DNA from: Verrucomicrobiales bacterium
Lineage (GTDB): Bacteria; Verrucomicrobiota; Verrucomicrobiae; Limisphaerales; UBA1100
Length of the DNA: 64,000 nucleotides
Assembly: GCA_002721895.1 (NCBI GenBank)
Contig: PBLV01000011.1
Location: 1-64,000 of the forward strand
Direction: 5' to 3'
Shown here piece by piece: positions 14,482-35,587 of the stretch. Under the pieces are notes generated by a model, which ran no database searches, was not told the origin of the DNA, and was given only the letters and a program-made list of their open reading frames with translations. A program made the translations under genes and the position numbers. Position 1 is the stretch's first letter; the number at the start of each line of letters is the position of its first letter.

Positions 14482-14553
14482 GGGCTCTTTGTAAAGGCGC
14501 GCCATGGCGCTGGCAAATGGAAACTTGCGCGCGAACAAAGTCGCATTAGACTC

Positions 14554-14574: not shown

Positions 14575-14575
14575 C

Positions 14576-17500
14576 ATGAAACACACCTTGGCAACAATCG
14601 GCGGATTCGCACTGGCTTGGCTAGCCGCCGCCGACTCCGTGGTGCTGCGTGACGGCCAAACCCTGCACGGCAAACTCGCCCTTACCAAGGACGGTGCCAT
14701 CCAAGTCACCGACGCCAATGGTACAAGAATCTTGGATGCCGGCAAATGGAAGCGGGTCATCCGCGACACCGCCACAAGGCCGCCCGGCCTTTCGGGTGTG
14801 GAATTCAAATTCTACGGAGGAAACTGGCCCAAGCTTCCAAATTTTGCAGATCTTCCAGCCGACCGCAGCGGAGTGATGTCCACCACCAAGCTCGACCTCA
14901 CCCCGCTGGGTATCGTGGGCACGGCTCAAAGGCTTTTTGATCTCCGGGCCGGCCAAGTCATGAGCCACGACGCCTCGCCGCGCATGCAGAGCCGCCCCTT
15001 CACCATCACGGCTGAAGTTACCGCCACCGCACCCGATGGCGTCATCCTCGCACAAGGAGGCCGCGTCGCGGGCTATGCGATTTATCTCGAGGAAGGCCGG
15101 CTCATATTTGCCACGCGCATCAACCACAAGCTCACCACCGCGGTCTCCGCCCAGAACTTTCCCCTGAACCAGCCCGTCACCATCACTGCCCAGTTGCGAC
15201 GCGATGCCATCATGGAACTAACCGTCAACGGACAGCCCGTCGCCCAAGGCGCGGGCGCCTCACTGCTTCCCAGCCAACCCCGCGATGGCCTAAGTGTGGG
15301 AAAGGATGTTGATGTGCGCGTGGGCCCTTACAAGAACGAGAACCCGTTTCAGGGCACCATCAAGCGCATCAGGCTACAGCTTGAAGGCGGCGGCGTGGTT
15401 TACACAGGTCGCCTTCACACCGCTGCGGGCCGCCATGAATTCAACCTCAATACAAGCTATGCCGCGCGGCTGAAAATTGATGGCCGCGCTTACATCGACA
15501 AACTTGACCCCAAAGCTCCAAACCAACAACGGGCTGCGTTACAACTCCCCGCCGGCCCACATTTCTTCCAGCTCGAGTTCGCACAGCTTGACCCCACCCA
15601 AGGCGGCAGCCAAGCCAACGACTTTTCACTCACATGGAGCGGCCCAAGCATCGCCGACCCAACCCTCACGGCCGCACCACCCGCGGATACGCAAACCTGG
15701 GTACGGGACGACACTGCAACGCCCGGCCCCGGGTTGCTCACATGGAACGGCTCCTTCCTCCCGCACACCGTGAAAACCATCGACGCCGACAAAGTGTTTT
15801 ACAACAACACCAGCATCAGTCGCGCAAATGTCAGCATCGTTTTGTTGCAAAAATTGACCGTCCCCAAGGCTCGCACGCTCAACGGCAGCCCTCCCGGAGT
15901 GCTGCTCCAAAGCGGGGACTTCGTGGAAGGCAAAGTTACCGCGATGAACAAGGACACCATCACGGTTGAATCCATCCTCATTGGCCGGAAAACCTATATG
16001 CGCCTCATCGAAGCCGTTGCCCTGGTCTTCAACCGTCCCTCGCGTCCCATGCCCGGCACACGATTCTCCATGCGCGACGGTTCGCGTTTCGTTTCCACCC
16101 GGCACGAGTTCCGGGAGGGAAACATCCACTTGATCCAGCCCCCTTTTCGCGGGCGTGTTCTTCCCTTCAATGAGATTTCAGAAATCACCACCGGCACCCT
16201 GTCCAACCTACTGCAGGAAGCCTCCGCGCACTGGGACGCCCACACAATCGCAGGGCAAAAATTCCTCGCCCGCCGCGAAACCATCAATGCCGGCATCATC
16301 CGCCAACACAATGACCTGATCCAAACCCACGTGAACGCCGCCAAGCGTGCCGCCCAAGCCACTGGCGAACTCCCCGCCCTTGCCAAGTTTGAAACCGAGG
16401 CCAAGAACGCCGAACAAACCCTGCGCACCAAGCGAGACGCCCTGCGCGGCCAGGTTTCCCAACTCCAAAACACCTACAATCAGACCAAGAACGCCCTGAC
16501 AACGGCCCGGAACAACCTGGACACCGAGTGCGAACGAGCCAATAGCGCACTGCAACAACACAATGCTGCGCTGACATCACAAGCCCAAGCCACGCTGACA
16601 TCACACGCTCTCGCTCTACAAAACGACCTGACCGCCACTTGGTCACAGAACATCAGCAAAAACGAACTCGACCACTCAAGGACAACCGAAGTCCGCGCCA
16701 CCACCGCCCGCGACATCGCACGCAAGACCCTCGCCCATAGCCAAAACATTCTCCACCCAGCCCGCAGTGAATCCTCCAAGGCACAAGGAAGTGAATCAAA
16801 CAGCCTAGCCAACAAACGAGCCAAACTGCAGGAACTGGACAACAAGCATCGCGCTTTTCTCGCCAGTCAAGAGCAGACCGGCCTCGCCCTCATGGGTGCC
16901 GCCTCATCCGGCCAACGCATCCTGCAGATCAGGATCAGTCGTACCCGCGCCATGGACGAGTTGGCCCAGCTAAAAATCAGCTTGGAACAAGCGGAGCAGA
17001 AAATAAAAACCGCCGAGCAAGCCGCGATGGCCGCTGCCACATCCGTACAAAAGATCGTCAACAGCACGCACGCCGCGAGGAACGAACACACAGCTGCATC
17101 AACCGCACTGGCTCAGGCTCAAAAGACATCGGATGAGGCAAGCCTCATTGTCGACTTGATAGGTGGAGGAGAATTGGATCGACAGATCACGCAATCAACC
17201 ACACGCCAACAAGCTATGGAGAAAGCCGCAAAAGCCGCGGACACTAGCCTAAACGATGCGCGAGCCGTATTGGACAAAACCACAAAGGCAGTCGATTCCG
17301 CAAAGTCCAAGGCGGACGCAAAGCGGAAGGCCAAAGGGGCTGCTCTCCAAAAACTGGAAACCAAGCTATCCGCGCAACAAGCGGCACTACAAAGCCTAGC
17401 CGAGACCTCCGAAAGCGTGACCCATGCAAATATCCTGAAAACATCGTCCAACCGTGAGATCAAGACCGCCAAAGAACGACTCGACCGAGCCACAAAAACC

Positions 17501-19402
17501 GAGTCGCTGGCAAACACCGCGCTGCAGTCAGCTGTCAACGCACACAATACAGCGCGCAAAGCCCAGTCCGTATCAAGCAGGGAACTCAGCGCCGCCAGTT
17601 CCAAACACACAAGCACAAAAAATACATCCGCCGCTGCATTCAGGGCTTACCAAACCAGCTTCGCCAGACATCAGCCTGCCGCCGACAAGTCCGCCGAGGC
17701 AAATGCCGCGCTCGCCAAATTGCGCAGGGAAATCTCCGTCGCCAAGAGAGCCGTTGACGATGCCACCCGCCGGATTGCCGGAGCCCAAAATGAGCTCAAA
17801 AAGGCCGACCATGCCGCCAACACCAATCAGGACACGGATCAAGCAAATGCCCTGCGCCAACGTGTTGCCGATGCCAAGTCTCTCCTTACCCGACTCACCG
17901 GCACCACTCTTCGGTTGGCCAACAACAGATTGAAAGCCGCCAACTCCGCCTACTCGAAGGCGCTCTCCACCAAGGCCTCAGCCGAGCGCACGCTAACGGA
18001 ACAGTCCAAGCAACTTGCCACTGCCAGGATGAACCTGCGCACGGCACAAACCGATTTCCAAGCCGCCAAGGCCGGGCTGCAAAGGGCGCTAACCCGATTT
18101 GAGCAGGCCGCAATCGGGGAACAACTGGCACAGACAGGCTACAACCAAGCCACGCACAATCACAACGTGTCCAAGCAGGAACTTGCCAACGCGAAAGACG
18201 GGCACTTGAAATTGACCACACAAAGCAAACAGGCCACGAACGCTGCCGGCCTTGCCTCCACCAAGCGTTCCGGTGCCGAGAGGTTGCTCGCAACCGCGAC
18301 CCAGCAATCCTCCTCCGCGTTGCTTGAGTTCCGCAAAGCAGAAAAGGATTTTCAGGATGCGGAGGCCATTCACCAAGCGGCCCTGATGGAGATGAACGCC
18401 GCCCAGAGAGTTCTCAAGAAAGCAGAGGATAAAACCAAAACAAACCACGCCAAGGCGGCCACAGAACGACGGACACTGGAACTCTTGACCCAGGCAAAAC
18501 AGAACAACCTCACCTTGCCACAGGCCGAAATGGCGGCGGGCAAGGCGATGGAAAATTTGAAACAAGCCCATGCGACCGAGACAGAGAAAAAGACCCAGCG
18601 GGATCTGGCCATTGAAAACCAATCCAAGCTTGAAATGGCTTCTGCTACTGCCACCCTATCGTTTGAAGAAGCCAAAGCGAACCATGCTACGCTCACCGCC
18701 CAGCAAAAGTCGCTCGAGGAACTGGCAAGGAACCTAGATGCCCTCATAACCGCCACCACGGGTAGCCGCGACGCCGCGCGCAATCAAGCCAACTCCCACA
18801 AGGCCAACTGGACACGAGCGCACCAGACAACCGCGGCTGCCACGATTGGCCTTCGCGAGGCCGACATTCAGACCCAAGCGGCCAGACTGGCCACCCGCCG
18901 CATTTTCCAAACCCGGGACGCCCACGCCCTGCACACGGATCTATGGCTGAAGGAATTTAGGCGGCTCGATGCGGAATTTGCGCGGGTTCAATCAAGAAAA
19001 GTTTCGCCGGCGATTCATCTGGCCGGCGCTCACAAAAACGCCACGACCCAGACAAAGGCCGTCCAATTTTCCACGGTCAACAACCTGAATAAAGCCAACG
19101 CCGCCACGGTTACCGTTGATCTCGCTTTCCGCAATGCCGTCAAAACCAACTGGGAAAAGGACGTCGCCGAGTTGGAGGCGCAGCGACTGGAGTCCGTAGC
19201 GTGGGGGAAATTGTCGACAGCCCAACTCACGCTCGACCAAGTGATGGATGAGTACAAGGTGGTTTACGATGATTACATCAAGAAGAAACGTGCCGCGGAC
19301 GCGATCCGCGGCAAAATCGCGAGCGCCCTGCGCGAGCGCGACATCGCCAAGCAACGGCTGGACGCCTTGAAGCCCGCGCATCGCGCCATTGTTTCCCCTT
19401 GA
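14576..19402 (+). CDS. Giant secreted coiled-coil protein with PA14/LamG-like N-terminal domains
   Basis: 1608 residues from the ATG at 14576; an ATG at 14504 would add 24 residues ahead of the signal peptide (KHTLATIGGFALAWLAAADS). About 20-60 is a small beta domain. FKFYGGNWPKLPNFADLPADR at about 80-100 looks like the start of a PA14 domain. A LamG-like jelly roll follows (FTITAEVTATAPDG... to about 285), then the PA14-like core GRLHTAAGRHEFNLNTSYAARLKIDG. A second small beta domain ends near 530. From about 550 to 1590 the sequence is almost purely Ala/Lys/Gln/Thr/Glu helix, strongly coiled-coil. I know no named family for the whole. Likely a long fibrous periplasmic or surface protein. 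It ends 7 bp from the convergent operon. Confidence 0.8.
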   Translation: MKHTLATIGGFALAWLAAADSVVLRDGQTLHGKLALTKDGAIQVTDANGTRILDAGKWKRVIRDTATRPPGLSGVEFKFYGGNWPKLPNFADLPADRSGVMSTTKLDLTPLGIVGTAQRLFDLRAGQVMSHDASPRMQSRPFTITAEVTATAPDGVILAQGGRVAGYAIYLEEGRLIFATRINHKLTTAVSAQNFPLNQPVTITAQLRRDAIMELTVNGQPVAQGAGASLLPSQPRDGLSVGKDVDVRVGPYKNENPFQGTIKRIRLQLEGGGVVYTGRLHTAAGRHEFNLNTSYAARLKIDGRAYIDKLDPKAPNQQRAALQLPAGPHFFQLEFAQLDPTQGGSQANDFSLTWSGPSIADPTLTAAPPADTQTWVRDDTATPGPGLLTWNGSFLPHTVKTIDADKVFYNNTSISRANVSIVLLQKLTVPKARTLNGSPPGVLLQSGDFVEGKVTAMNKDTITVESILIGRKTYMRLIEAVALVFNRPSRPMPGTRFSMRDGSRFVSTRHEFREGNIHLIQPPFRGRVLPFNEISEITTGTLSNLLQEASAHWDAHTIAGQKFLARRETINAGIIRQHNDLIQTHVNAAKRAAQATGELPALAKFETEAKNAEQTLRTKRDALRGQVSQLQNTYNQTKNALTTARNNLDTECERANSALQQHNAALTSQAQATLTSHALALQNDLTATWSQNISKNELDHSRTTEVRATTARDIARKTLAHSQNILHPARSESSKAQGSESNSLANKRAKLQELDNKHRAFLASQEQTGLALMGAASSGQRILQIRISRTRAMDELAQLKISLEQAEQKIKTAEQAAMAAATSVQKIVNSTHAARNEHTAASTALAQAQKTSDEASLIVDLIGGGELDRQITQSTTRQQAMEKAAKAADTSLNDARAVLDKTTKAVDSAKSKADAKRKAKGAALQKLETKLSAQQAALQSLAETSESVTHANILKTSSNREIKTAKERLDRATKTESLANTALQSAVNAHNTARKAQSVSSRELSAASSKHTSTKNTSAAAFRAYQTSFARHQPAADKSAEANAALAKLRREISVAKRAVDDATRRIAGAQNELKKADHAANTNQDTDQANALRQRVADAKSLLTRLTGTTLRLANNRLKAANSAYSKALSTKASAERTLTEQSKQLATARMNLRTAQTDFQAAKAGLQRALTRFEQAAIGEQLAQTGYNQATHNHNVSKQELANAKDGHLKLTTQSKQATNAAGLASTKRSGAERLLATATQQSSSALLEFRKAEKDFQDAEAIHQAALMEMNAAQRVLKKAEDKTKTNHAKAATERRTLELLTQAKQNNLTLPQAEMAAGKAMENLKQAHATETEKKTQRDLAIENQSKLEMASATATLSFEEAKANHATLTAQQKSLEELARNLDALITATTGSRDAARNQANSHKANWTRAHQTTAAATIGLREADIQTQAARLATRRIFQTRDAHALHTDLWLKEFRRLDAEFARVQSRKVSPAIHLAGAHKNATTQTKAVQFSTVNNLNKANAATVTVDLAFRNAVKTNWEKDVAELEAQRLESVAWGKLSTAQLTLDQVMDEYKVVYDDYIKKKRAADAIRGKIASALRERDIAKQRLDALKPAHRAIVSP

Positions 19403-19409
19403 TCGACGA

Positions 19410-22400
19410 CTACTCGTCCTCGTCCCGGCCAAAACCATACATGGGGAGCAGACGGTAGTACACTTCTAGGCTGAGGACGGCCAAGCCTGTGGCGAGTACG
19501 CGGCCCCCAGTGTTCACATGCTGCCCCTTGGGTTCCCAACTGCCCTTGTTCGCGCCGGTGGCTTGCTGCAATGCCACGTAGACTTCCTTAAGATTATCGT
19601 TCCACTCCTTCCAGATCGGCCCCTGGTGCTGATAGAGCGAAAGTGTGGCGTAATAGTCGTAGTAGAAATCAACCCGATTGGCCTTGAGCATGTTCGCCTT
19701 CAGGTAAGCAGCGCTTTCCTTCATATTCGGCGCGGTGGGGGGCGACAAGTCCAGTTGCCGTAAAAACATACCCGTGGCCGTCATGGCTGGTGGCCCGTTG
19801 CCCTTGCCCGTATAGCCATAGCGGCCGCCCACCTTTCCGCCGGCGACGGAGTCAATGAACTTGCGGGTCAACACAAAGGCCTGCTCAGGCACTTCAAGAT
19901 CCGCCATCCGCGCCGAATGCATGGCCATGTACTGCCAGCCCGTCACCGAAAGGTCGCCCTTCTCTCCCGGGTTGTACCGCCAACCACCACCCTCCTTGTG
20001 TTGCGCCTTCAGGATGAACTCGATGGAGCGCAGGGCGGGATCCTTGAGCTTGGGATCCTTGGTCAACCCGTAGGCCTCACACAGGGCAATGGCCGCAATG
20101 CCGTGGCAGTACATGCGCCCACCGGTGTTTCCGCGCAAATCACCATCCGGCTTCTGCTGTTTCAGCAGCCAATCCAGCGCTTTGCTTTGGGCTTGCGCGT
20201 GGCGGGTGTTGTCGTTGTGCTTGATGCCCCAGCCGTAATAGCAAAGAAGCGCCAAGCCAGCGCCAGCGGTGTTGTACCTGGAATTGCTGTTGAACTTGCC
20301 CATCTCCCACCGGCCGTCCGGTTCCTGATTGGCCGTAAACCAGTCCAGCCCCAGTCGTATGGCCCGCTCGGTAGCCTCGGAGCCGCCCAGTTGCTCAATG
20401 ACCTCCTGCGAGGGTTTGCCTCGCAGTTTCTTGACGAACTGGCCCAGATTTTTGACGTCCGGGTTGTCCTTGGGCAACTCCAGCTTGATGCCGCCGGAAA
20501 GGCGGTCGATGGTATCCTCACCGGGCAGGTTCATGGACAACATCGGCTGGTCGATCACGCCCTCCAGCTTGGGTGACTTGATGTTGGCTTCCAGCCCATC
20601 CACGGGATTGATGGTATCGCCGCCCGTGTCCGTGGTCGGCGCCGGCTGGCCGCTGGCGGCAATGGATTTCGCGTTGGATTGCACGTCTGCCTGCTGATTG
20701 CCCGCGGCACCGGTTTGGCCCTGCGAGGTCCGCACCCTCTGGAGGTCGCCCTCGTTGCGCTTGAAGTCACCCTCGCTCGGGTCCGCCGGGTTCACCTCCA
20801 GCTCCAAGCCCTTGGCGAGTGAGTCCACCGGGTTTTCCCCCGGTAGATTGTTCGACAGCGAATCCCGGCTGATATCGCTCTTCACCGGACGCGGCAAGTC
20901 ATTGGCCTCCAGTCCCTCCAAGGGATCCACCGTGTCCGTCGTCAACGCCGGCTTGCTGCTGGCCGCGGCAGATTCCGATTTGGACACTACGTCCACCTTC
21001 CGGTTCTCACCGGGATCCACTTCCGCCTTTTCGGTCCGGACCTTCTGGAGCGTTTCCTCGTTGACTTTGAAGTCATCCTTCGCCGGATCCACCGGTTCAA
21101 CCGGCTCCGCGCTGGCCACCTCGCCCACCTCCAGTTCGGCCACCTCCAAACCCGGCAATTCCATGGGCGCCAGTTCCTGCAGCACCGCTGAATCACGCGC
21201 TGGCGCGTTCACCGTTTCCGGGGTAGACTGGCCCTTAGATTCATTGGCCTTGGACGGCCTGAAATTGCTCACCAGAGACTGATCGGTCGTACGTTGCGGA
21301 ACGGGCACGGGAGCCGTAGCTGCCTCGGCCGGATTAAACTCCACCTCACGAAATTCCTGAACGTTTTTGTTCACGATCAGCTGCGTGGTCCGTGACACTT
21401 CGGCCAGTTCCTGCTCCGACTCCATGGCCAGTTCTTCCTCCGCCAAATTGTCCACCGACACCGCCACCTCGGGCGCCTTGGGCTCGCGACCGCCCAAAGC
21501 CTGCGTGATCAGCCAATAGGACAGCAGAAGAAGCAACAACAAGTGTACCATCGCCGATCCCGCAAGGCATTTGTGATAAAGGTTGGTGATGTCACGCCAT
21601 TTCTCCAGCAGGTAAATCAGCGCAATCAACGACGCGATGGCCAGAAGAATCCACCAGATGATATTGCTCATCAACTGCTTGAACTGCGCCAATTCCGACA
21701 AATCCGTATAGCCGATCACCTCGCGCGTGGTGGACTGGTACAAGCGGTATTTCGGCTTGGCCGCGGCCAACTCTTCACCACCCTCCAAGTCACCATCCGC
21801 GCTGAACAACAGATCAAAGCCCTCCATCCGCACCGCCGGATCCGTCGCGTTACCGCGCTTGATGTAAACATCCACTTTCTGCGGCGCCTGCATCTTGCCT
21901 TTCACCACGCGGGACAAATAGAGGTTGAAACCCACTTTGCCCTTATGGCCACGATCCGAGGCGAGAAACACGTGACTGCCCCTGCCGGTCAGAGCTGTTT
22001 CGATGTCATCCGCGCTTGAATTAAGCACACTCACGGGCTTCGCCTCAGTAAATTCCGGTATCGGCGGCAGCGCCGAAGCCACGGGTGGCTGAGTCGCATT
22101 GTCCTCGCCGGAAACAGGCGCAGCCAGTTTGCGACGGGCCACATGGATATCCTGCGCCTTGCCGCCCGTCTTGCGGTTGGAGGAAAAGAAAAGCCGTGCA
22201 TCATCCGCAGAAGCCGCCGGGCCAGTCTCGTCATTTGCCGAGTTGATCTCTCCGCCAAGCCGCTCCACGCCCATCCACTCCCCATCTGCAAACCGGGCCA
22301 CATACAAATCGTATCCCCCCGCCCCGCCATCACGATCCGAGCTGAAATAAAGATAACGGCCATCCTGTGAGAATGCCGCCCCCCGCTCATTGGCCTCGGT

Positions 22401-22862
22401 GTTCAGCGCCACCATCGGCTTCGGACGGCTCCACAGGCGACCATCCCAAGTTGAAAGATACAAGTCCGCCCCAGTCTCCGACACCTCATCTTTCGCGTCA
22501 GAATCCTTGGCCCAACGCGTCAAAACCATCATGGCCCCATCCGCTGAGAATGTCGCCTCCACACGCTCGGAAAATACGTGAAATCCCACCGTTGCGTTGG
22601 CATCCGTCACTCCGCCAAACACCCTTTGGCGCGGATCCTCCCACAGCACCATTCGCTCTTTCTTCGCCTTCGCATCCACCCGCAACCCCTCATCATCCGT
22701 AAAGTAGGCCCAGACATCCTCATGCAATCGATCCTTCAGAATCGCGCCCAGCGCCACCACCACCGCCAACGCGATTACCGGGAGTATCCAGCGTGTCCAC
22801 GAGCGCTTCCGGACAGGGGTCTCATTCTCCTCCACCCGCACCTGTTTATTCTCCTTACTCAT
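19410..22862 (-). CDS. TonB-like membrane protein with PD40 propeller and prenyltransferase-repeat toroid
   Basis: 1150 residues. Start at the ATG at 22862: GGGGAG lies 9-10 nt upstream and the previous stop is 1 nt away. Order: membrane helix 24-42; PD40/TolB-like propeller blades about 100-390 (for example YLYFSSDRDGGAGGYDLYVAR); helix 401-419; helix 433-456 containing SAMVH, a TonB-type SxxxH motif (Ser436, His440) at its cytoplasmic end; acidic, Pro-containing linker 457-829 with a duplicated segment of about 100 residues; toroid 830-1140 built of QxxDGRW-type terpenoid-cyclase/prenyltransferase repeats. The DxDD cyclase motif is absent, so binding rather than catalysis is likely. Last gene of the operon with exbB and exbD. 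Inference: an energy transducer from ExbBD to a periplasmic or outer-membrane partner. Confidence 0.8.
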   Translation of the reverse strand: MSKENKQVRVEENETPVRKRSWTRWILPVIALAVVVALGAILKDRLHEDVWAYFTDDEGLRVDAKAKKERMVLWEDPRQRVFGGVTDANATVGFHVFSERVEATFSADGAMMVLTRWAKDSDAKDEVSETGADLYLSTWDGRLWSRPKPMVALNTEANERGAAFSQDGRYLYFSSDRDGGAGGYDLYVARFADGEWMGVERLGGEINSANDETGPAASADDARLFFSSNRKTGGKAQDIHVARRKLAAPVSGEDNATQPPVASALPPIPEFTEAKPVSVLNSSADDIETALTGRGSHVFLASDRGHKGKVGFNLYLSRVVKGKMQAPQKVDVYIKRGNATDPAVRMEGFDLLFSADGDLEGGEELAAAKPKYRLYQSTTREVIGYTDLSELAQFKQLMSNIIWWILLAIASLIALIYLLEKWRDITNLYHKCLAGSAMVHLLLLLLLSYWLITQALGGREPKAPEVAVSVDNLAEEELAMESEQELAEVSRTTQLIVNKNVQEFREVEFNPAEAATAPVPVPQRTTDQSLVSNFRPSKANESKGQSTPETVNAPARDSAVLQELAPMELPGLEVAELEVGEVASAEPVEPVDPAKDDFKVNEETLQKVRTEKAEVDPGENRKVDVVSKSESAAASSKPALTTDTVDPLEGLEANDLPRPVKSDISRDSLSNNLPGENPVDSLAKGLELEVNPADPSEGDFKRNEGDLQRVRTSQGQTGAAGNQQADVQSNAKSIAASGQPAPTTDTGGDTINPVDGLEANIKSPKLEGVIDQPMLSMNLPGEDTIDRLSGGIKLELPKDNPDVKNLGQFVKKLRGKPSQEVIEQLGGSEATERAIRLGLDWFTANQEPDGRWEMGKFNSNSRYNTAGAGLALLCYYGWGIKHNDNTRHAQAQSKALDWLLKQQKPDGDLRGNTGGRMYCHGIAAIALCEAYGLTKDPKLKDPALRSIEFILKAQHKEGGGWRYNPGEKGDLSVTGWQYMAMHSARMADLEVPEQAFVLTRKFIDSVAGGKVGGRYGYTGKGNGPPAMTATGMFLRQLDLSPPTAPNMKESAAYLKANMLKANRVDFYYDYYATLSLYQHQGPIWKEWNDNLKEVYVALQQATGANKGSWEPKGQHVNTGGRVLATGLAVLSLEVYYRLLPMYGFGRDEDE

Positions 22863-22863
22863 T

Positions 22864-25272
22864 TCAGGCATTCTCCCCAACTTCCTGTCTTTCCTCCGTG
22901 GGTTGCGCCGAATTCGGCTTGGGATCACGAATTGCGTACCACGTGCTTCCCACCAACACCATCAATGCCCCCGCAAGTGCCAGAATCATCTGGATGTTGT
23001 CCGCCATCCACGCGCCCGTGGGCATCTTTGAGTAGTCATACCGCCTTTCAACGCGCCGGCTCATGGCTCCATATAGTGCATCGCTGTTCTTGTCCCGGGC
23101 AGAATTGAACATCAGGTTGAAGCCGGCCATACGCAACGCGGGCGCGGTTTCATCAGAAGCCGAGTTGATTTCCGGGCCAAGGTTTTCCGCTTCACCCGGT
23201 AACAGGCGCCCTCCCAAATCCGCCCCACCCGGTCGCTTAAAACGCGCGCGGTAAATATCCATCCCCCCCTGTCCTTCCGAACGGCTCGACGCAAAGTAAA
23301 TGAAATCCCCATGCTCCGTCACCACGGGATCCAAATCTTCCCCGCTCGAGGAGAGTCCCGGAATATGCTGCGCGTGGCGGAACAACGGCGTCGACGGCAG
23401 TTGGCCACCGGTCTTCAGGCCCTCCGCTTCGCTCATTGGCCCCGCCGGATCCGGCTCAAAACCCAGCCCATAAAGCGGCGTGTAACGATAATGCGCCTCC
23501 AGCGAAAGCGCCGCCAAAGCCGTGGCCACCACCGTGCCCATGGCCCCGCCGTGTGCGCCGGACGCCGCCCAGGAACCATCCTCCGCCTGTGCAGCCACCA
23601 GCTTTTCCCGCATGGCATCCAGCCAGCGTCGCCATGCCGGCCCCTGCTGCTGATAGGACGCCAAGGTGCCATAGTAGGAGTAGTAAAGATCCGCAACCGA
23701 CAATCCCTGCTGGTCCACAATCTCCGAAGCTTCCGCCGCCAGCTCGCTGTTATTGGACAGGCCCAGAAGCTGACTACAGAAGAAGCCCACCGCATTCATC
23801 GCCGGCGACTTGCCCTTGGGCGGCACGTTCTCTCCATGCGCGTAGCCAAAGGATCCTCCGTGCTTACCCCCGCTCATGATTTTTAAAAACTTGCGGGCAC
23901 CCTCGATGGTCTCCGGCTTTACCTTCAATCCCGACATTTCCGCGCTGGCCAAGACCATGATAATCCAGCCCGACACTGACAGGTCGCCCTTCTGAGAATC
24001 AAACCCGCCGTCCGAGTACGCCTTGTAACGCCAGCCTCCTGTCGTTTTGTTCTGTGAAGCCTCAATAAAGTCCACTGCCGATTGCGCGCGCGGCCGCAGT
24101 TTCTGGTCTTTCGTCACACCGTACGCCTCTACCAGCGCCAGCCCGGCGATGCCATGGTCATACATATCCCCTTTCGGGCTGACGCCGCGCAAGTCACCGT
24201 CCGCCTTGCCCTGCTGTTCCACCAGCCAATCAATCCCCTTTCGCACAGTTTCCTGATAGGTGCAGTTCAAATCATGCCGTTCACCTCTTCCGTAAAACAC
24301 CAGCAGCGCCGCCCCGGTCGCCGCCATATCGTGGTTGCCAGCTCCCTTGTGCTCGCTCAGGTCCCATCGCCCGTCCTCGGACTGAGTGCTCGCCAGAAAC
24401 GCCAACGCCTTGTCCACCGCCGACTCCGTGGCCGGCGTGCCACCTAGCTTGCCCATCACGTTAGTGCTGGCCAGTGCCCCCTCGCGCAACGAATAAAGCA
24501 TGCTCAGGCGCCGCTCCACCATCAGATCATACGGGCGCTCCTGTGCCAGGTCCGCGGAATACAAGTCGTGATCCACTTTCAGTTCCTCAACCTGCCTGAT
24601 GGAAAGCTGCTCCTCGGCCCCATCCACCCTTTTGCGTGGCCGGTTGCTGGAGAAAAACAATTCAAAATGATCCGGCGAAATCGCCGGACCCAGCTCATCA
24701 AACGGCGTATTCACCCGGCTCGTCAATGGCAGCGGCCACGCATATTCCGCTCCATCCCACTTGGCCACCCAGATGTCATAACCGCCCAGCCCTCCCGGCC
24801 GGTTACTGGAGAAATAAAGAAACGTTCCGTCACCACTGAGACTGGGGGATGACTCCTGAAAATTGCTGTTCAACGCCCGCATAGGCCGGGGCTTGCCCCA
24901 GGCACTGCCATCCCACCGGCGCAGGAACAAGTCCTCCGTTCCGTCCTTGCCCAGGCGAGCATAAACCATCCTCGTGCCGTCCGAGGAGATGGCCGGCTCG
25001 GAAACCACATCCTCCGGCAACAAGCCCGCCTTCACTGGCTGCGCTTTTTCCCAGAGGACAAACCCCACCTCCACATCATGCGCCACCTGCTCGAAGGAGA
25101 CCACGTCCGTGTACTTGTACCAACGGTGCGGCTTTAGGTGCGCCACCATCCAAATGGCTGACCCCACCAGTACCACTGCCGCCAGCCAGCCATAGGCCCG
25201 GAATCGCTGCGTGCGATCCATGCCCAGCAACTTGCGCTCTTCCAGCTTCGTGTCCTGACCCAGTTCGCTCAT
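22864..25272 (-). CDS. Membrane protein with PD40 propeller and prenyltransferase-repeat toroid
   Basis: 802 residues. Membrane helix 26-44; PD40 blades about 90-210 (SGDGTFLYFSSNRPGGLGGYD); toroid 280-600 of terpenoid-cyclase-like repeats (for example QSEDGRW at 297-303, KADGDLRGVS, KTTGGWRY); more PD40 blades 640-735; C-terminal helix 762-781. No SxxxH motif and no DxDD cyclase motif. It shares its domain types with the next gene product but in a different order. The gap to exbD is 7 nt and to the following gene 1 nt. By analogy it may form a periplasmic complex with the TonB-like protein. Enzymatic terpene chemistry is unlikely. Confidence 0.8.
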   Translation of the reverse strand: MSELGQDTKLEERKLLGMDRTQRFRAYGWLAAVVLVGSAIWMVAHLKPHRWYKYTDVVSFEQVAHDVEVGFVLWEKAQPVKAGLLPEDVVSEPAISSDGTRMVYARLGKDGTEDLFLRRWDGSAWGKPRPMRALNSNFQESSPSLSGDGTFLYFSSNRPGGLGGYDIWVAKWDGAEYAWPLPLTSRVNTPFDELGPAISPDHFELFFSSNRPRKRVDGAEEQLSIRQVEELKVDHDLYSADLAQERPYDLMVERRLSMLYSLREGALASTNVMGKLGGTPATESAVDKALAFLASTQSEDGRWDLSEHKGAGNHDMAATGAALLVFYGRGERHDLNCTYQETVRKGIDWLVEQQGKADGDLRGVSPKGDMYDHGIAGLALVEAYGVTKDQKLRPRAQSAVDFIEASQNKTTGGWRYKAYSDGGFDSQKGDLSVSGWIIMVLASAEMSGLKVKPETIEGARKFLKIMSGGKHGGSFGYAHGENVPPKGKSPAMNAVGFFCSQLLGLSNNSELAAEASEIVDQQGLSVADLYYSYYGTLASYQQQGPAWRRWLDAMREKLVAAQAEDGSWAASGAHGGAMGTVVATALAALSLEAHYRYTPLYGLGFEPDPAGPMSEAEGLKTGGQLPSTPLFRHAQHIPGLSSSGEDLDPVVTEHGDFIYFASSRSEGQGGMDIYRARFKRPGGADLGGRLLPGEAENLGPEINSASDETAPALRMAGFNLMFNSARDKNSDALYGAMSRRVERRYDYSKMPTGAWMADNIQMILALAGALMVLVGSTWYAIRDPKPNSAQPTEERQEVGENA

Positions 25273-25279
25273 TTCCCGC

Positions 25280-25696
25280 CTACTTCAAGGTTTTCACCAT
25301 GATATGCGATTCCTTAACTCCAACGAATTTGCAGATCGAAAGCACGTTGGCCACATAAAGGTGCTTGGTCTCCTTGTCTGCCCGCACCATCACCTTCAGC
25401 TCAGGCCGTTTTTGCACCGCGGTCTGCATGGTCTTCTCCACTTCCTCCTCGCTCACCGGCTCGCCCATGATTACGTAGGCACCTGACTTGCGAATATTCA
25501 CCTTTACCACGTCGCCCGCCTTGTTGGAAATCGCCTGGTTGCGCTGATCCACCGGCAGTTCCACCCGCCGGTCATCCTCCTTCTGTTTGAACGTGGTCGT
25601 GACTAGGAAAAAAATCACCAGGATAAACATCACGTCCAAGAGCGAGGTCATGTTGATGTCTTCCTCCTCTTCAGCCATCCGCGCACGAATACTCAT
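25280..25696 (-). CDS. exbD: ExbD/TolR biopolymer transport protein
   Basis: 138 residues, normal for the family. Short cytoplasmic acidic N-terminus, a single helix at about 16-37 with the conserved proton-path aspartate (Asp21, in NMTSLLDVMFILVIFF), then a periplasmic domain ending in VMVRADKETKHLYVANVLSICKFVGV. With ExbB it forms the proton-driven motor that powers TonB- or Tol-type proteins. It overlaps exbB by 4 nt (ATGA). Confidence 0.95.
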   Translation of the reverse strand: MSIRARMAEEEEDINMTSLLDVMFILVIFFLVTTTFKQKEDDRRVELPVDQRNQAISNKAGDVVKVNIRKSGAYVIMGEPVSEEEVEKTMQTAVQKRPELKVMVRADKETKHLYVANVLSICKFVGVKESHIMVKTLK

Positions 25697-26499
25697 GATT
25701 TGCCACCTTTCTTCGCGCTTTTCTTGGTCGATTCCTCAGGTTCATCCTGCTCGGCCGATTCGACGGGTTCCAGCAAGCCTTCATCGCCGCCTTCGCACGA
25801 GAACACAAATTCCGCGCCAGCCTCGTCAATGTCATCAATCAGCCGATCCACCCGGGTCGAGAGAAAGTGATAAAACAAGAGCACGGGAATGGCGATCGTA
25901 AGCCCCGCCGCCGTGGTCACCAACGCCTCATAAATACCGCGCGCCAGCTCCGTCGTGCTGGCATCCACCGAGGTCACCTGAAATGCCTTGATCATGCCAT
26001 ACACCGTCCCCAGCAGGCCCAGCAACGGCGCCACTGTAGCAATGTACCGTAACGGTCTCAGGCTGCGTTTCATCTTGTCCGCCTCACGCGAACCCACATC
26101 ATCAATCGCCTTTTCCACGGCCTCGCGGCCCAGCTTGATGCGCCGAATGCCCGCCTTGAAAATATGCCCCACAGTGCCCCCCGCATTGTCGCAATACGAA
26201 AGCGCCTCGCGGCCCGTCGAATCCTTCCCCCAAGCCTTGCTCAGGCCCGGCAGAAAACTCGACGGCATCACCCGGTCACGGCTCAGCGAGATGAGGCGCT
26301 CCAGCCCCAGCGCCAACGCCAGAATCGAGGCCAACCCCAAGGGATACATGACCGGGCCACCCTTCTGGATAAGCGACAACACGGTTTCCTGCTCCACGCC
26401 TGTCTTTGCGTCCACCTCCGCCCCAAGTGCGCTGGTGGCGCAAACGGCCAGCAGCATCACCGCCATGGTCCCGGCACATTGATAATGATTGTTCTTCAA
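25693..26499 (-). CDS. exbB: ExbB/TolQ/MotA-family proton channel
   Basis: 268 residues. An N-terminal signal peptide (about 1-26) precedes three helices at roughly 50-68, 150-172 and 190-215, with the family strings LRYIATVAPLLGLLGTVYGMIKAF and LVTTAAGLTIAIPVLLFYHF. The charged tail ends in Lys/Glu repeats. It is the stator partner of ExbD. The extra signal peptide is a feature of a subset of ExbB proteins, often ones serving outer-membrane import. It starts 32 nt after the TPR gene. Confidence 0.95.
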   Translation of the reverse strand: MKNNHYQCAGTMAVMLLAVCATSALGAEVDAKTGVEQETVLSLIQKGGPVMYPLGLASILALALGLERLISLSRDRVMPSSFLPGLSKAWGKDSTGREALSYCDNAGGTVGHIFKAGIRRIKLGREAVEKAIDDVGSREADKMKRSLRPLRYIATVAPLLGLLGTVYGMIKAFQVTSVDASTTELARGIYEALVTTAAGLTIAIPVLLFYHFLSTRVDRLIDDIDEAGAEFVFSCEGGDEGLLEPVESAEQDEPEESTKKSAKKGGKS

Positions 26500-26531
26500 T
26501 CGATTGCTCCTTTCTTTGGAAACCTGTCCGG

Positions 26532-29500
26532 CTACCGGTTCAACCGCAGCTCATCCAGGTATCTTGTCGCGACCTTTGCCGCATTGGTTTTGGGAAAACG
26601 TTTGATTACATCCTTCAGCCGCTCCTCCGCCTCCTCATTCTTCCGTTGCGCAATGAAAATTCGCCCCATCTCCAGCACCGCCTTGGCCCGCATGTCCGGG
26701 TAACCCTGCGCATTGATCTCCACGCTCAGAAACTCCGCCATGGCCTTGTCGTAATCCGTCAGGTTAAACCAACATTCCCCAATCTGGTACCGCGCCTGGA
26801 CCATCCACTTGTCCTGCCGCACCGGGTTGTTGCCCTCGCGCGGAAGCAGTTGGTTGTATTCCCCAATCGCCTGTTTGTATTTCATCTGCTTCTCCAGCGC
26901 CCGCGCCATGCCGTAGCGAGCGTTCCGAGTCCACTGGCTTTCCCGATATTGTTCGAGGAATTTCCGGTAACTCTCCTGCGCCTCCTTGTGCTGCCCCGTC
27001 AGATTTTGGGTTTCCCCCAATCGCAACAGGATGGATTCAGCCAAGCCCGCGGGCACCCCCTTCGCCTTGTAAGCCGTCAGGAAATGCTCCCTCGCCGGCA
27101 CGGATTCCGTGAGGGCCAGTCGCGACTCCGCCGCCTGAAATAGGATTGAAGGCATCAACTTGGATTCCACGGCGCGAGGAATCAGAGCCTCGAACATCTT
27201 CGCGCTGGACTCGTAATCACGCTTCTTGAAATGCGCGCTCGCGAGCTGATATTCCAGTTCGAACTTCAACTCCGGCTTCTTCACCGTTTTCATGGTTTCA
27301 GTCAACTTGGCGATCACCGCATCCTGCGCCCCCACATCCAAGTTCAATTCCGCCAGCTCCGACTGCACCTTGGTCGCCAGTTCGCTTTCCGGATACTGCT
27401 TAAGCAACAGTTCGTAACGCTCCGTCGCCTCCTTGTTGCGTTTCATCGAACGCTCGCACCACGCCCATTCATACGCTGCCTTGTCGGCAAACTGCGCCTT
27501 GGCGTGGTTCTCCACCACCTGCTTGAAAAAACCCGCGGCCGTTCCCCAGTTCTTGACCCGCGCGTACGAAAGTCCAGTGTAGTACAGAATCAAGTCCCGC
27601 CGCGGGTGTTCGCGGTACTGGTTGGCCACGTTTTGCAGATGCTTGGCTGAGTTCTCGTAGTCCTTCGCCTCAACCAGCGCGATCCCCTGTTGTAGGGCTG
27701 CGCTGGCCGCTAGCGAACTGCCGTCCTTGGCCTTGCGCCCGCCGCTGTTTGCCGCCGCAATGCCAAAATGATTAGCCGACTCCTTAAACCGGTTCTCCTT
27801 GAAATCAATCCAGCCCAGATAATAGTGTACCCGGCCCAGTTCAGTACCTGAGGCCGGGAAGAACTTGCTGTTCTTGTTATTACGCTCATTTACAAAACGC
27901 TCCAACACACCCCGCGCGCGCTTCAACTCATCCGCATCATACAACAGCTTGCCCTGTTCCGAAAGCCCCAGCGCCAAGTGCGGCGTCTCCGAGCCATAGT
28001 TGCCCACGAGATGTTGCAACTGCTCCACCGCCTCCGCTCCCCGGCCCAAGCGCGCCAAGGCCACGCCCTGCTGAACCAGTGCCGCGTCCAGATTTGGCCC
28101 CTTCAGCAACTTGGGTTTCTGGTTTGGGTTTTTCTTCTCCTCAAAATGGGTGGCGATGAATGCCTCAAATGGCTTGATGGCCTCCGCCCATTGGCCCAGC
28201 CGAAAGTAATTTTCGCCCACCACAAACGACAGCTGCGCAAATAACTGCCCGTCCGGGTTGCGCGCCAGCAGCGGAACCGCGCGCTTGTTGGATTCCGCCC
28301 ACTGCTGTTTGTGGTGATGCACCTGGGCAATCCTGAACTCCGCCGCCAATCGCTGGTCATGGGTCTTTTCTGTCGTCAGGAAAGTCGTATAGGCCGTCAC
28401 CGATTCATCCAGCCGGTTGAGCAGGAACAGGTTTTCCGCGTGTAAAAAACGGACATCCCCAATCAGCGGGCTCTTGGCCCTTTCACGAATAAACCGATCC
28501 GTGGTCTGGAAACTGGGATTGAATTGCTTGAGTTTGTGCTGGCAAATCGCCTGCTGGCTCATCACTTCATCCATCTGCCCGTAATCCCCGCGCCGCTGCT
28601 GTATGCGCACCAGCAGCTTCAAGGCGCCTGTCCAGTCAGGATTGGACTGCAGCATCAGGGCGTTGGCGTACTCAAAATCAATGTCCGCCACAATCGATGT
28701 CCGTGGCTGGCCCGGCTTGGGCTGAAACCCTTTCTTGTACCATTCCTTATCAATTGCCGACCGCAACGCATTGGCCGCCTCAGCAAACTTGCCGTTGCGC
28801 GAATACAACCGACCTCGCCAGAGATAAGCCCGCCCGGCGACCTCATCATTGCCCTGCCCCAAGCCATTGAACCGCTGGTCCGCCTTTCCCGTCTCATTCT
28901 GCTCCATCAAGCACCGCGCCACCTTAATCTGTGCCTCACGCACACGCGGATCCTCATTGGCCGGTTTCTTGTTGTCCTTCAAAAAAATCTCATAGTCCGC
29001 CTGCGCCTCCTCCCATTTCTTCTGATTGAACTTCACCGTTCCCAACCGGTACTGGCAATCGACCGCATCCTCACCCCGCAATCCCGCCAGTGCCGACTGC
29101 AGCGATTTCTCCCCCAAATCCAGTTTGCCATTCGCCACGTGACATTCCCCCAACAAGTAGTCCAAGCGAGTTTCCCACGCCGCCGATTTCTCGGTGGAAG
29201 CCGTCACTCGCGCCTTGGTCAATGCCGCAATAGCCTCCGGATATTTCTCCAGCTTGTACTGTGCAAACCCTTCCTGATATCCAGCCCTAATAGCCTGTGG
29301 CGCCGTCGGCTGGACCGTTGCCACCTTGCGCGCCCACAAAACCGTCTTGTCCCAGTCTTTCTTGGCAAAGAACAAGTCCGCCACCGCCGCGGTCGCGCCC
29401 GTCCGATGCACACCCGCCTTGAGGTTACTTGCGGCCGCAATCAACCGGGCCTGCGCCTCGTCCCGTTTATTTGTGAACAGAAGACACTGCGCGTGCAACA

Positions 29501-29825
29501 AAGTCAGCCGACCCCGTTCAATCTTTGAATCCAACTTCTTCTCATCCAACAACCGCTTGAACTCACCCACCGCCCGGTCGTATTGCTTCAGCTTGAACTG
29601 GCTCAACCCCAGACCATATCGCGCCAGATGCGCCTTTTCGTGCGCTGCGTACGCCGCCAGAAATTTCTGATAATTCCCCGCCGCAATTGGATACAGCATT
29701 CGATTGTAGGCGGCATTCGCGGCAAAATAGAGTTCCAATGCGGGATCAGCCTTGGGTTGCGCGAATAGGGAAGGAGCCAGCGTGCCAGCCAGTAGAAGAA
29801 CCACCGCCGATAGAGAAGTTCTCAT
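26532..29825 (-). CDS. Large secreted TPR-repeat protein, first gene of the ExbBD operon
   Basis: 1097 residues from the ATG at 29825, which gives a signal peptide ending near LFA-QPK. The frame is open 32 codons further up but without a signal. The rest is TPR-like helical repeats, about 20 units (for example YGLGLSQFKLKQYDRAVGEFKRLL), similar to the YbgF/BamD-type TPR proteins that accompany Tol-Pal and ExbBD systems. Probable periplasmic scaffold for the two propeller-toroid proteins or for the outer-membrane partner. No Shine-Dalgarno sequence precedes the start; a promoter placed very close suggests a leaderless message. Confidence 0.85.
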   Translation of the reverse strand: MRTSLSAVVLLLAGTLAPSLFAQPKADPALELYFAANAAYNRMLYPIAAGNYQKFLAAYAAHEKAHLARYGLGLSQFKLKQYDRAVGEFKRLLDEKKLDSKIERGRLTLLHAQCLLFTNKRDEAQARLIAAASNLKAGVHRTGATAAVADLFFAKKDWDKTVLWARKVATVQPTAPQAIRAGYQEGFAQYKLEKYPEAIAALTKARVTASTEKSAAWETRLDYLLGECHVANGKLDLGEKSLQSALAGLRGEDAVDCQYRLGTVKFNQKKWEEAQADYEIFLKDNKKPANEDPRVREAQIKVARCLMEQNETGKADQRFNGLGQGNDEVAGRAYLWRGRLYSRNGKFAEAANALRSAIDKEWYKKGFQPKPGQPRTSIVADIDFEYANALMLQSNPDWTGALKLLVRIQQRRGDYGQMDEVMSQQAICQHKLKQFNPSFQTTDRFIRERAKSPLIGDVRFLHAENLFLLNRLDESVTAYTTFLTTEKTHDQRLAAEFRIAQVHHHKQQWAESNKRAVPLLARNPDGQLFAQLSFVVGENYFRLGQWAEAIKPFEAFIATHFEEKKNPNQKPKLLKGPNLDAALVQQGVALARLGRGAEAVEQLQHLVGNYGSETPHLALGLSEQGKLLYDADELKRARGVLERFVNERNNKNSKFFPASGTELGRVHYYLGWIDFKENRFKESANHFGIAAANSGGRKAKDGSSLAASAALQQGIALVEAKDYENSAKHLQNVANQYREHPRRDLILYYTGLSYARVKNWGTAAGFFKQVVENHAKAQFADKAAYEWAWCERSMKRNKEATERYELLLKQYPESELATKVQSELAELNLDVGAQDAVIAKLTETMKTVKKPELKFELEYQLASAHFKKRDYESSAKMFEALIPRAVESKLMPSILFQAAESRLALTESVPAREHFLTAYKAKGVPAGLAESILLRLGETQNLTGQHKEAQESYRKFLEQYRESQWTRNARYGMARALEKQMKYKQAIGEYNQLLPREGNNPVRQDKWMVQARYQIGECWFNLTDYDKAMAEFLSVEINAQGYPDMRAKAVLEMGRIFIAQRKNEEAEERLKDVIKRFPKTNAAKVATRYLDELRLNR

Positions 29826-29860: not shown

Positions 29861-29948
29861 GCCCACGCACCGATGAATAAGCCCTCTTTCTCATCGTCAG
29901 TTTCCAGAGGTGGGTGCCCACCGGATATCACAGAAAATAAGCGGGAAA

Positions 29949-31907
29949 ATGAAATGGCTCGGAACATATATCCTTGGTGCTGCCAGTGTTTGCCGCCTGA
30001 TGGGCGCAGATCCTGCCGATGTGACTTTTTTCGAGGAGAAAATCCGGCCGATATTGGCGGAGAAATGTTATAAGTGCCACTCGGATCGCGCGCAGAAGTT
30101 GAAGGGGGATCTCAAGCTCGATTCGCGCGCGGCGATTTTGAAGGGCGGCGAGGAAGGGCCCTCGGTCACGGTGGGCAAGCCGAACGAGAGTCTTTTGATA
30201 AAAGCCATTCGCCACGAGATTCCCGACTTGGAAATGCCGCCCAAGGAAAAGCTGCCGGCGGCGGTGATCAAGGATTTCGAGCAATGGGTCGCGCGCGGCG
30301 CGGTGTTTCCCGAGGGCGCGAAGAAGGTCGATGTCGCGTGGTGGGATCGCGTGAATGACAAAAGGCTGTTGCCGAAGGGAAAATCCATCGCCGAGGTGGT
30401 GGATCATTATGTGGATGCCAAGCTCGCTGCCAACAAGGTGAAACCCGTCGATGCCGCGGACGATTACGAGTTCATCCGCCGCACCACGCTCGATCTCGCC
30501 GGTCGCATCCCCACCGTGCCGGAGCTGGAAAAATTCGTCGCCGACAAGGCCAAAGACAAACGCGCGAAACTGGTCGACCACCTGATGGCCTCCGAATCCT
30601 TCCTGCGCCACCAAGCCATCGAGTTCAACTGGCTGCTGATGGACAAGCAGGACAGCAAAATGGCCAACTACCTCACCACAGCCCTGAAGGAGGGGCGGTC
30701 TTGGGACAAGATTTTCCGCGAGGTGATTTTGCCGAATCAAGCGGATGAAAAGCAGCGGGATGCGGCGGTGTTCATCAAGGAGCGCGTGAAGGATACGGAC
30801 GTGCTCACGGTGGAGGTGAGCGTGAAGTTTTTCGGCATCAATGTTTCGTGCGCGCGCTGTCACGATCATCCCGAGGTGCCGTCTTGGAAGCAGGATCACT
30901 ATTATGGAATGAAGTCCTTTTTTAATCGGACGTTTGACAACGGCGATTTCTTTGGCGAGCGCGAGTACGGGCAGGTGAGTTTCACGACGACGAAAGGGGA
31001 ATCGAAAAAGGCGAAGTTGATGTTTTTGTCCGGCAGCGAGTTGAAGGAGCCGGAAGCCAAGGATCCGGACAAGAAGGCGAAGGATGCGGAGAAAAAGCGG
31101 AACGAGAAATTTAAGAAGGACAAAAAGCCGTTGCCGGTGCCGAAGTTCAGCCGTCGCGCGCAGCTCGTGGACGCAGGGCTGAAGCCGGGCGATGACGGCT
31201 TCTTCGCGCGGTCGATCGTGAACCGCTTGTGGCACCAGATGTTTGGGCACGGCTTGGTGATGCCGCTGGATCAACTGCACGGGGCGAATAGCCCGAGCCA
31301 TCCCGAGCTGCTCCAGTGGCTCGCGCGCGATCTCATTGAGCACGACTACGACCTACGCCGCACGATCCGCGGCTTGGCGCAAAGCAAGGCGTATGCCCGC
31401 GCCAGTCGCTGGGGCGATTCGCAGCGCCCGTCACCCTCGTACTTCGCCGTCGCTATGCCGCGGGCGATGACACCCCACCAATATGGCGCCTCGCTTGCCA
31501 TCGCGGTGCAGGATCCGGGCGATATCGCCAAGCAACCGACCGCTGAGCAAGCCAAGCGCATCGCCGGCTGGGAAAAGCACGGGCACGGTTGGGCGAGCCA
31601 ATTCGAGCGTCCGCGCGAGCTGTTTCAAATCAGCGTTGACGAGGCGCTGTACCTCAGCAACAACGACCGCATTCGCCGCGAACTGCTCGCCGAAAGCGGC
31701 AAGCTCGTCGGTAATCTCCTCAAGCTCAAGGACCGCCGCGAACGCATCGAGGCCGCCTGGCTCGCCGCGCTCTCCCGCAAACCCGCCAAGGACGAACTCA
31801 ATGCCGTCGAAGACTACCTCACCGCCCGCGACGACCGGCTCGCCGAAGCATGGAAACAAATCGTCTGGTCCCTCCTCACCAGCGCGGAAATGCGGTTTAA
31901 TCATTGA
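29949..31907 (+). CDS. Cytochrome-like (CxxCH) DUF1549/DUF1553 protein
   Basis: 652 residues. The ATG at 29949 gives a signal peptide (MKWLGTYILGAASV...). A cytochrome-c-type CYKCH motif at 40-44 is in the short N-terminal PSD1-like domain. DUF1549 follows at about 130-340, with a second CxxCH (CARCHDHP) and the GMKSFFNR string. DUF1553 runs from about 395 (NRLWHQMFGHGLV) to the end (LLTSAEMRFNH). These proteins are almost confined to PVC bacteria and are thought to be periplasmic, but their chemistry is unproven. Divergent from the TPR operon. First gene of a long cluster. Confidence 0.9.
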   Translation: MKWLGTYILGAASVCRLMGADPADVTFFEEKIRPILAEKCYKCHSDRAQKLKGDLKLDSRAAILKGGEEGPSVTVGKPNESLLIKAIRHEIPDLEMPPKEKLPAAVIKDFEQWVARGAVFPEGAKKVDVAWWDRVNDKRLLPKGKSIAEVVDHYVDAKLAANKVKPVDAADDYEFIRRTTLDLAGRIPTVPELEKFVADKAKDKRAKLVDHLMASESFLRHQAIEFNWLLMDKQDSKMANYLTTALKEGRSWDKIFREVILPNQADEKQRDAAVFIKERVKDTDVLTVEVSVKFFGINVSCARCHDHPEVPSWKQDHYYGMKSFFNRTFDNGDFFGEREYGQVSFTTTKGESKKAKLMFLSGSELKEPEAKDPDKKAKDAEKKRNEKFKKDKKPLPVPKFSRRAQLVDAGLKPGDDGFFARSIVNRLWHQMFGHGLVMPLDQLHGANSPSHPELLQWLARDLIEHDYDLRRTIRGLAQSKAYARASRWGDSQRPSPSYFAVAMPRAMTPHQYGASLAIAVQDPGDIAKQPTAEQAKRIAGWEKHGHGWASQFERPRELFQISVDEALYLSNNDRIRRELLAESGKLVGNLLKLKDRRERIEAAWLAALSRKPAKDELNAVEDYLTARDDRLAEAWKQIVWSLLTSAEMRFNH

Positions 31908-31951
31908 CCGGCTGGCTTGCTTTTTTCGTTCGTCGTCGCTAGAGTTTCACC

Positions 31952-32176
31952 ATGAGCTACGAGGATTACATCGAGGTGCGTCGTGAAGTGCGCAGCGGCA
32001 AACCCTGCTTCAAGGGTACGCGCATCACGGTTTATGATGTGTTGGAGTACCTCGCCGGCGGCATGGCGGAAGCAGAATTGTTGGAGGAGTTTCCCGCACT
32101 GACACCGGAGCACATTCGCGCGGCGCTGGCGTTTGCCGCGGCGCGTGAGCGGCGGCTGGCATCGGGGCTGGCGTGA
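31952..32176 (+). CDS. DUF433 antitoxin-like protein
   Basis: 74 residues with the DUF433 pattern: KPCFKGTRITVYDVLEYLAGGMAEAELLEEFPALTPEHIRAAL. Such proteins are winged-helix DNA-binding antitoxins paired with DUF5615 (PIN-like) toxins. Its stop overlaps the GTG of the next gene. It probably binds its own promoter. Confidence 0.85.
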   Translation: MSYEDYIEVRREVRSGKPCFKGTRITVYDVLEYLAGGMAEAELLEEFPALTPEHIRAALAFAAARERRLASGLA

Positions 32177-32511
32177 AACTGCTCCTCGATGAAAACCTTA
32201 GCCATCGCTTGACGGCGCGGTTGTCTGCGGCATTTCCAAGAACCCAGCATGTGGATGACTTGAACATGCGCGGCCAGCCGGACACCCTGATCTGGGATCG
32301 AGCTGCGCGGGATGGGTTCGTAATCGTCTCGAAGGATGATGACTTTCGCCAACTCAGCCAATTCCGCGGGGCGCCACCGAAAGTCGTTTGGCTGGTGGTG
32401 GGCAATGCGGGCACGGGAGAAATCGCAAAAATGATTCTCGATCAGCAAAAGGCGATCGAACAATTTGCATCGCACCCCGAGGACGCACTCTTGACTTTGC
32501 GATTAGACTAA
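32173..32511 (+). CDS. DUF5615 PIN-like toxin
   Basis: 112 residues, GTG start overlapping the antitoxin stop by 4 nt. MKLLLDENLS at the N-terminus and VSKDDDF near residue 55 carry the acidic residues expected of Mut7-C/PIN-like nucleases. It forms a canonical toxin-antitoxin module with the DUF433 protein. An RNase target is likely, but unknown. Confidence 0.85.
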   Translation: MKLLLDENLSHRLTARLSAAFPRTQHVDDLNMRGQPDTLIWDRAARDGFVIVSKDDDFRQLSQFRGAPPKVVWLVVGNAGTGEIAKMILDQQKAIEQFASHPEDALLTLRLD

Positions 32512-32555
32512 ATGAATCCACCGGCCCATGCGTCCAAACAACGAGTATTTGAATC

Positions 32556-33863: not shown

Positions 33864-33880
33864 CCTCAACCATTCACGAC

Positions 33881-35576: not shown

Positions 35577-35587
35577 GAGAATACAGC

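Follow-up and report, generated by a model that had tools for sequence, protein, structure and literature searches.

ExbB and ExbD normally drive TonB or TolA; what, then, does such a motor drive where neither is encoded beside it? The question is raised by contig PBLV01000011.1 of a Verrucomicrobiales bacterium (NCBI GenBank assembly GCA_002721895.1), of which positions 1 to 64,000 were analysed (64,000 nucleotides, here the window). Its minus strand carries a tight cluster of five genes, encoding a TPR protein, an ExbB/TolQ and an ExbD/TolR motor subunit, and two PD40-toroid membrane proteins that we call Tor1 (propeller-toroid 1) and Tor2 (propeller-toroid 2). An initial annotation, made from the sequence alone, had described these five tightly spaced genes, had seen no TonB or TolA among them, and had proposed the last protein, Tor2, as a transducer driven by ExbBD. 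The genes lie on the minus strand exactly where they had been placed, the missing TonB and TolA were borne out by domain searches, and the transducer proposal is well supported at the level of sequence. Tor2 is probably a TonB/TolA-like periplasmic force transducer in which a toroid replaces the TonB tip. This reading draws on the conservation of an SxxxH helix in comparison with controls, on linkage to ExbD, on an ExbD lineage of its own, on the location of TonB elsewhere in the genomes, and on motor residues that align with those of known motors.

In the operon, Pfam gives matches above cut-off to TPRs (many), MotA_ExbB, ExbD and PD40 (62 and 71 bits), and the toroids match SQHop_cyclase (squalene-hopene cyclase) below threshold only. 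TonB_C and TolA domains found no match in the operon at E 0.1 or in 30 further window open reading frames (ORFs) at E 1e-4, and no vWA domain was matched by Pfam in the operon. The closest solved relative of the ExbB/TolQ subunit is TolQ (8odt, E 2.6e-11), whose GTVxG and EALxxTA segments align with it. The TPR protein matches the NCBIfam model tol_pal_ybgF with 194.6 bits (cut-off 90.1), a match of the TPR-repeat type; its ORF opens at 29921, and a Met with a signal-peptide-like start, as judged by eye, lies at 29825. The ExbB and ExbD genes overlap by 4 bases, and Tor1 starts after a gap of 7 bases from ExbD. With one or the other of two ATGs as its start (22871 or 22862), Tor2 either overlaps the stop of Tor1 or abuts it.

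Tor1 and Tor2 are paralogues, 42% identical across the toroid and 33% across the first part of the propeller, and the toroid sits at a different place in each. In its predicted structure (mean pLDDT 84.8), Tor1 runs from a transmembrane (TM) helix through a propeller part, the toroid and a second propeller part to another TM helix. That of Tor2 (mean pLDDT 65.9, the folded domains being higher) consists of a TM helix, a propeller, two TM helices, a long linker predicted to be disordered and a C-terminal toroid. When Tor1 was searched by sequence against solved structures, the single match was at chance level. Foldseek matches were re-examined in VIA-align lists, and absence from those lists is uninformative.

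The SxxxH motif lies in TM helix 3 of Tor2, the proposed site of motor coupling. Among the best 120 of 505 matches to Tor2, the window's own protein included, 119 have SxxxH inside a hydrophobic segment, and the one protein without it (P0038) starts after the helix. All 119 carry Trp at +14, 118 carry Cys at −4, and the distance from SxxxH to the toroid has a median of 285 residues in the 99 of the 120 homologues in which it was measurable. The motif is kept even in Phycisphaerales relatives with a best-segment identity of 27-29%. Controls gave far lower frequencies: SxxxH helices were present in 2 of 120 proteins from the Tor1 search (best 120 of 501 matches), one of which, P0169, resembles a Tor1-Tor2 fusion bearing the helix, and in 9 of 411 ORFs of at least 250 residues from the fetched loci that encode a TM segment but no toroid, a background that was called mechanically and may include spurious ORFs. 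Conservation of the SxxxH helix is thus more than chance.

The arrangement of genes recurs in relatives. One genome per species was scanned with alignment A1 and two toroid peptide patterns, which gave 273 relatives, and the best 80 loci were kept; the tally was made on the 53 loci in which the main toroid ORF has 2.6 kb or more of upstream sequence, the other 27 (less than 2.6 kb) being left out. The 53 loci are not independent, as several assemblies gave two or more. A same-strand ExbD lies upstream of the toroid ORF in 44 of them and a TPR gene in 49. The order TPR-ExbB-ExbD-toroid followed by an SxxxH toroid is found in 25, TPR-ExbB-ExbD-SxxxH toroid in 13, and partial clusters with ExbD in 3. 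This gene order recurs in records of Verrucomicrobia, Kiritimatiellia, Lentisphaerae and Phycisphaerae.

Several explanations compete for these observations. The motor could be a general energiser of an ordinary TonB, with the toroid proteins as bystanders, and 36 operon-bearing genomes, hand-picked from the 80 loci and largely metagenome-assembled, bear on this point. TonB_C matches in 28 of them (26 above cut-off) and receptor plug domains in 32 speak for such a role; ExbD is present in all 36, in 2 to 16 copies. In all 28, however, TonB_C lies elsewhere and never at the operon, so that no conventional TonB is encoded with this ExbBD, a point raised alongside the initial annotation, and the eight genomes with no TonB_C match still keep the operon. 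In the seed genome (G005) the two share one contig, more than 50 kb apart; contig numbers were matched to accessions via ExbD coordinates in G002, G005, G028, G032 and G033, and this was assumed for the rest. Twenty TonB stretches, in 19 genomes, were fetched as a selection from 39 matches. Eight show no ExbD, as a shared energiser would allow, some of them being cut by contig ends, but 12 contain an ExbD of their own. The ExbD tree, from a short alignment of 139 columns with 14 of 77 inner branches open, has a branch with 96/81 support that separates two sets of rows. One set holds all 41 rows from three-helix toroid operons, together with three motif-less, two toroid-less and one unclassified row; the other holds 19 TonB-linked rows, 12 single-helix-toroid rows and two from the DUF4159 clusters described below. 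In the ExbB tree, 42 three-helix, three motif-less and two toroid-less rows group with 89/92 support; here the label needs two changes, and long TonB-linked branches meet. The trees leave out rows that scored below 90 or had a length outside the range 100-300, as well as duplicate loci and two ORFs that overlapped, and both carry a warning of long branches meeting. The lineage of the operon's ExbD is separate from that of TonB-linked ExbDs, and a bystander role for the toroids is very improbable.

The toroids could instead be enzymes, terpene-cyclase-like or glycosidase-like, with the operon motor serving another transducer. They share their fold with class II terpene cyclases and complement TED domains, and a shared toroid fold decides function neither way. 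DxDDTA is the catalytic motif of class II terpene cyclases and GCGEQ the motif of complement TED domains; neither occurs in any of the 359 proteins checked, and unlike these relatives the operon toroids are membrane-tethered and ExbBD-linked. With the SxxxH helix and the toroid in one chain, an enzymatic role is improbable. A more serious contender is that the operon is a Tol-Pal analogue, in which the TPR protein would correspond to CpoB, the propeller to TolB and the toroid arm to TolA, acting in outer-membrane constriction or tethering at division. The two systems share a TolQ/R-like motor, a propeller fold and a TPR protein in one operon; models and chains of TolQ/TolR give the motor subunits higher scores than do those of ExbB/ExbD, TolB is the top Foldseek match of the Tor2 propeller, and the YbgF model is passed by the TPR protein. 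In contrast to Tol-Pal, propeller and transducer form one protein in Tor2, and neither Pal nor a TolB N-terminal or TolA/TonB C-terminal domain was found in the operon or in the 30 other window ORFs scanned. Such an analogy deserves consideration, yet we think it unlikely.

A number of observations weigh against Tor2 as a TonB-like transducer. The full SHLS pattern, whose spacing comes from E. coli TonB, is absent: strict conservation is confined to S and H, the L position holds L in 47 of the 119 homologues and M in 59, and none has S at the last position. Tor2 has three TM helices rather than the single N-terminal TM helix of TonB and TolA, which its single-helix toroid relatives do possess. 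Eight of the 53 loci show TPR-SxxxH toroid with no ExbBD nearby, although five of these eight assemblies also contributed an ExbBD-type operon locus, complete or cut (ExbBD-less/ExbBD-type pairs by accession prefix: L027/L006, L033/L037, L038/L001, L041/L060 and L047/L012). In three further loci TPR-ExbB-ExbD is followed by a toroid protein that lacks SxxxH, as in L074-L076, where TPR-TPR-ExbB-ExbD precedes a single-TM toroid protein of this sort, and one locus has none of the TPR, ExbBD and Tor2-type genes. In L102 (7378-14087) and L103 (7656-14504), TPR-ExbB-ExbD-propeller-TM helices occur with no recognised toroid, the helix of L102 reading AxxxH. The elaborate five-gene form is also patchy and rare in even phylum samples. 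Among 145 evenly drawn Verrucomicrobiota genomes, the Tor1 alignment finds matches at E 1e-3 in 64, with few exceptions through the toroid or propeller part, and full-length Tor1 occurs in one, the seed genome itself; a Tor2-type operon was seen in G051 (locus L095). In the sample of 199 Planctomycetota genomes, one unseeded genome (G297) has a near full-length Tor2 match with an adjoining Tor1-type ORF. As these scans scored at most seven candidates per genome in Verrucomicrobiota and two in Planctomycetota, the full-length counts are lower bounds. Finally, ExbB or ExbD lies within 2.5 kb of only 8 of 36 SxxxH toroid ORFs in Planctomycetota (all eight from top-ranked loci), where short contigs could hide ExbBD. 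Whether toroids usually occur without ExbBD, asked along with the initial annotation, is therefore answered in two ways: no for the propeller-toroid loci, yes for this single-helix family.

In the helix of L103 the motif is SxxxH, and the toroid protein of L074-L076 has a His at the start of its TM helix.

The five-gene composition is an elaborate variant within a wider family of toroid proteins. Of the 199 Planctomycetota genomes, 178 have a toroid match at E 1e-20 or better, and 40 loci were chosen from the matches listed, 20 high-ranked and 20 lower-ranked. Three of their 50 toroid ORFs lack an intact start and were left out; of the other 47, 36 carry an SxxxH helix (21 of 25 ORFs in top-ranked loci and 15 of 22 in lower-ranked ones); L166 has an SVAAH helix below the hydropathy threshold. 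The helix is also present in 103 of 120 homologues of one single-helix toroid protein (best 120 of 1299 matches), and the 17 misses include secreted-looking forms and shorter pieces. Where members of the family are named, it is as terpene cyclase, prenyltransferase or hypothetical protein. In five Verrucomicrobiota loci (L091, L092, L093, L096 and L100) a toroid protein with a single SxxxH helix is clustered with a TPR gene, a small gene, ExbB and two ExbDs; ExbBD was not found near the toroid of L094, and the toroids of L090 and L097 lack SxxxH. The order helix-linker-toroid of these simpler proteins repeats the plan of TonB and was counted in favour of Tor2 as a transducer, as was P0355, a single chain with a signal-like start in which two ExbD-like stretches (43.7 bits, cut-off 25.4) are joined to a toroid; the ExbD match of P0349 is below threshold. 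It is an evenly balanced proposition that many of the toroid proteins in Planctomycetota and Verrucomicrobiota form a new, expanded class of force transducers powered by the proton motive force, some with dedicated ExbBD and many as orphans sharing a motor in trans, that would drive envelope work specific to these groups, such as bulk handling of periplasmic polymers.

For the operon itself, in which Tor2 is taken as the transducer, a mechanism can be proposed. ExbB and ExbD would form a proton-driven motor, as their family membership and aligned key residues suggest. Helix 3 of Tor2 would dock on this motor via Ser458 and His462, to which motif conservation and gene linkage point, and the disordered linker would relay motor motion to the C-terminal toroid. 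The toroid would then grip a periplasmic or outer-membrane partner and pull or remodel it. Tor1, the paralogue that lacks the coupling helix, would probably act as a fixed inner-membrane dock or client, the TPR protein is probably a periplasmic scaffold, and the propellers are probably binding sites for partner proteins. Rather than classical siderophore-type import, we favour a task in the envelope that is specific to these phyla, for example moving large polymers or outer-membrane components.

Table 1. Genes and predicted features of the propeller-toroid operon (positions in the window).
Feature	Position	Strand	Basis or remark
TPR protein, first gene, ~1,097 aa	26532..29825	-	TPR_6 140 bits; signal-peptide-like start
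ExbB/TolQ motor subunit	25693..26499	-	Pfam MotA_ExbB 105 bits
ExbD/TolR motor subunit	25280..25696	-	Pfam ExbD 93 bits
ExbD motor Asp21	25634-25636	-	alignment to TolR LLDV Asp
Tor1	22864..25272	-	TM - half propeller - toroid - half propeller - TM
Tor1 propeller part 1	24547..25062	-	model strands 71-242
Tor1 toroid, inserted within propeller	23464..24531	-	
Tor1 propeller part 2	23050..23337	-	model strands 646-741
Tor2, proposed transducer	19410..22871	-	database version starts 22862
Tor2 TM helix 1	22734..22790	-	hydropathy 2.42
Tor2 beta-propeller (PD40)	21726..22562	-	model strands; Foldseek top match TolB 4pwz, E 1.1e-8
Tor2 TM helix 2	21606..21662	-	hydropathy 2.7
Tor2 TM helix 3, proposed motor-coupling helix	21507..21563	-	hydropathy and model
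SxxxH motif (Ser458, His462)	21543..21557	-	within Tor2 TM helix 3
Tor2 linker, mostly predicted disordered	20448..21506	-	pLDDT <50, model residues 458-478 and 480-797
Tor2 C-terminal alpha/alpha toroid	19467..20447	-	toroid by fold

Other genes accompany the operon and its relatives. A 1,632-residue protein, coiled-coil-like by eye and with a Lepto_7_Nterm match below threshold only, is encoded on the plus strand at 14504-19402, convergent with the operon; as it lies on the opposite strand, it was not counted in the system. Repeated DUF1501 and PSCyt2/PSD1 (DUF1549/1553) genes occupy 4075-5307 and 29910-48602; the PSCyt/PSD1 neighbours were not adopted as partners, such genes recurring in the window and in related loci. 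L090 contains three tandem TM-linker-toroid genes that lack SxxxH (8679-13610), and ExbBD was not found anywhere in the 20 kb stretch. In L062 (13359-21047) and L056 (5634-13328), a TPR-ExbB-ExbD-ExbD cluster followed by a multi-TM DUF4159 protein (domain score 108 bits in L062) adjoins the toroid operon, and is possibly another motor-linked envelope system.

The SxxxH motif allows the question of how these bacteria power outer-envelope work to be approached by single-residue tests. A testable function is also offered for the toroid proteins so prevalent in the Planctomycetota sample. With TonB-ExbB-ExbD the operon shares the ExbBD motor, linked ExbB and ExbD genes, and an SxxxH helix followed by linker and tip; it differs in the lack of a TonB_C domain and in its separate ExbD lineage, and no plug-domain receptor was found among the window ORFs scanned (the operon and 30 others). 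Closest in kind are the vWA-tipped transducers that a 2025 paper describes beside TPR, tolQ-like and tolR-like genes in bacteria of the Planctomycetes-Verrucomicrobia-Chlamydiae (PVC) group (Williams-Jones et al., PMC12204202). The statement of the initial annotation that no described system has this composition is thus too strong as regards the kind of machine. No toroid-tipped ExbBD transducer is described in the titles and abstract openings surveyed, and the words "toroid" and "prenyltransferase" do not occur in the main text of that paper. The vWA force transducers share with the toroid operon a TM helix with an S/H motif, a disordered linker, a globular non-TonB tip, and TPR, tolQ-like and tolR-like genes upstream (PMC12204202). 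The operon would extend the class of transducers opened by this paper to a second tip other than that of TonB, with the cluster present in several PVC lineages. It is set apart by an alpha/alpha toroid as the tip, TolB-like propellers, a paralogous second protein, three TM helices, and one ExbD in place of the tolR-like pair (PMC12204202).
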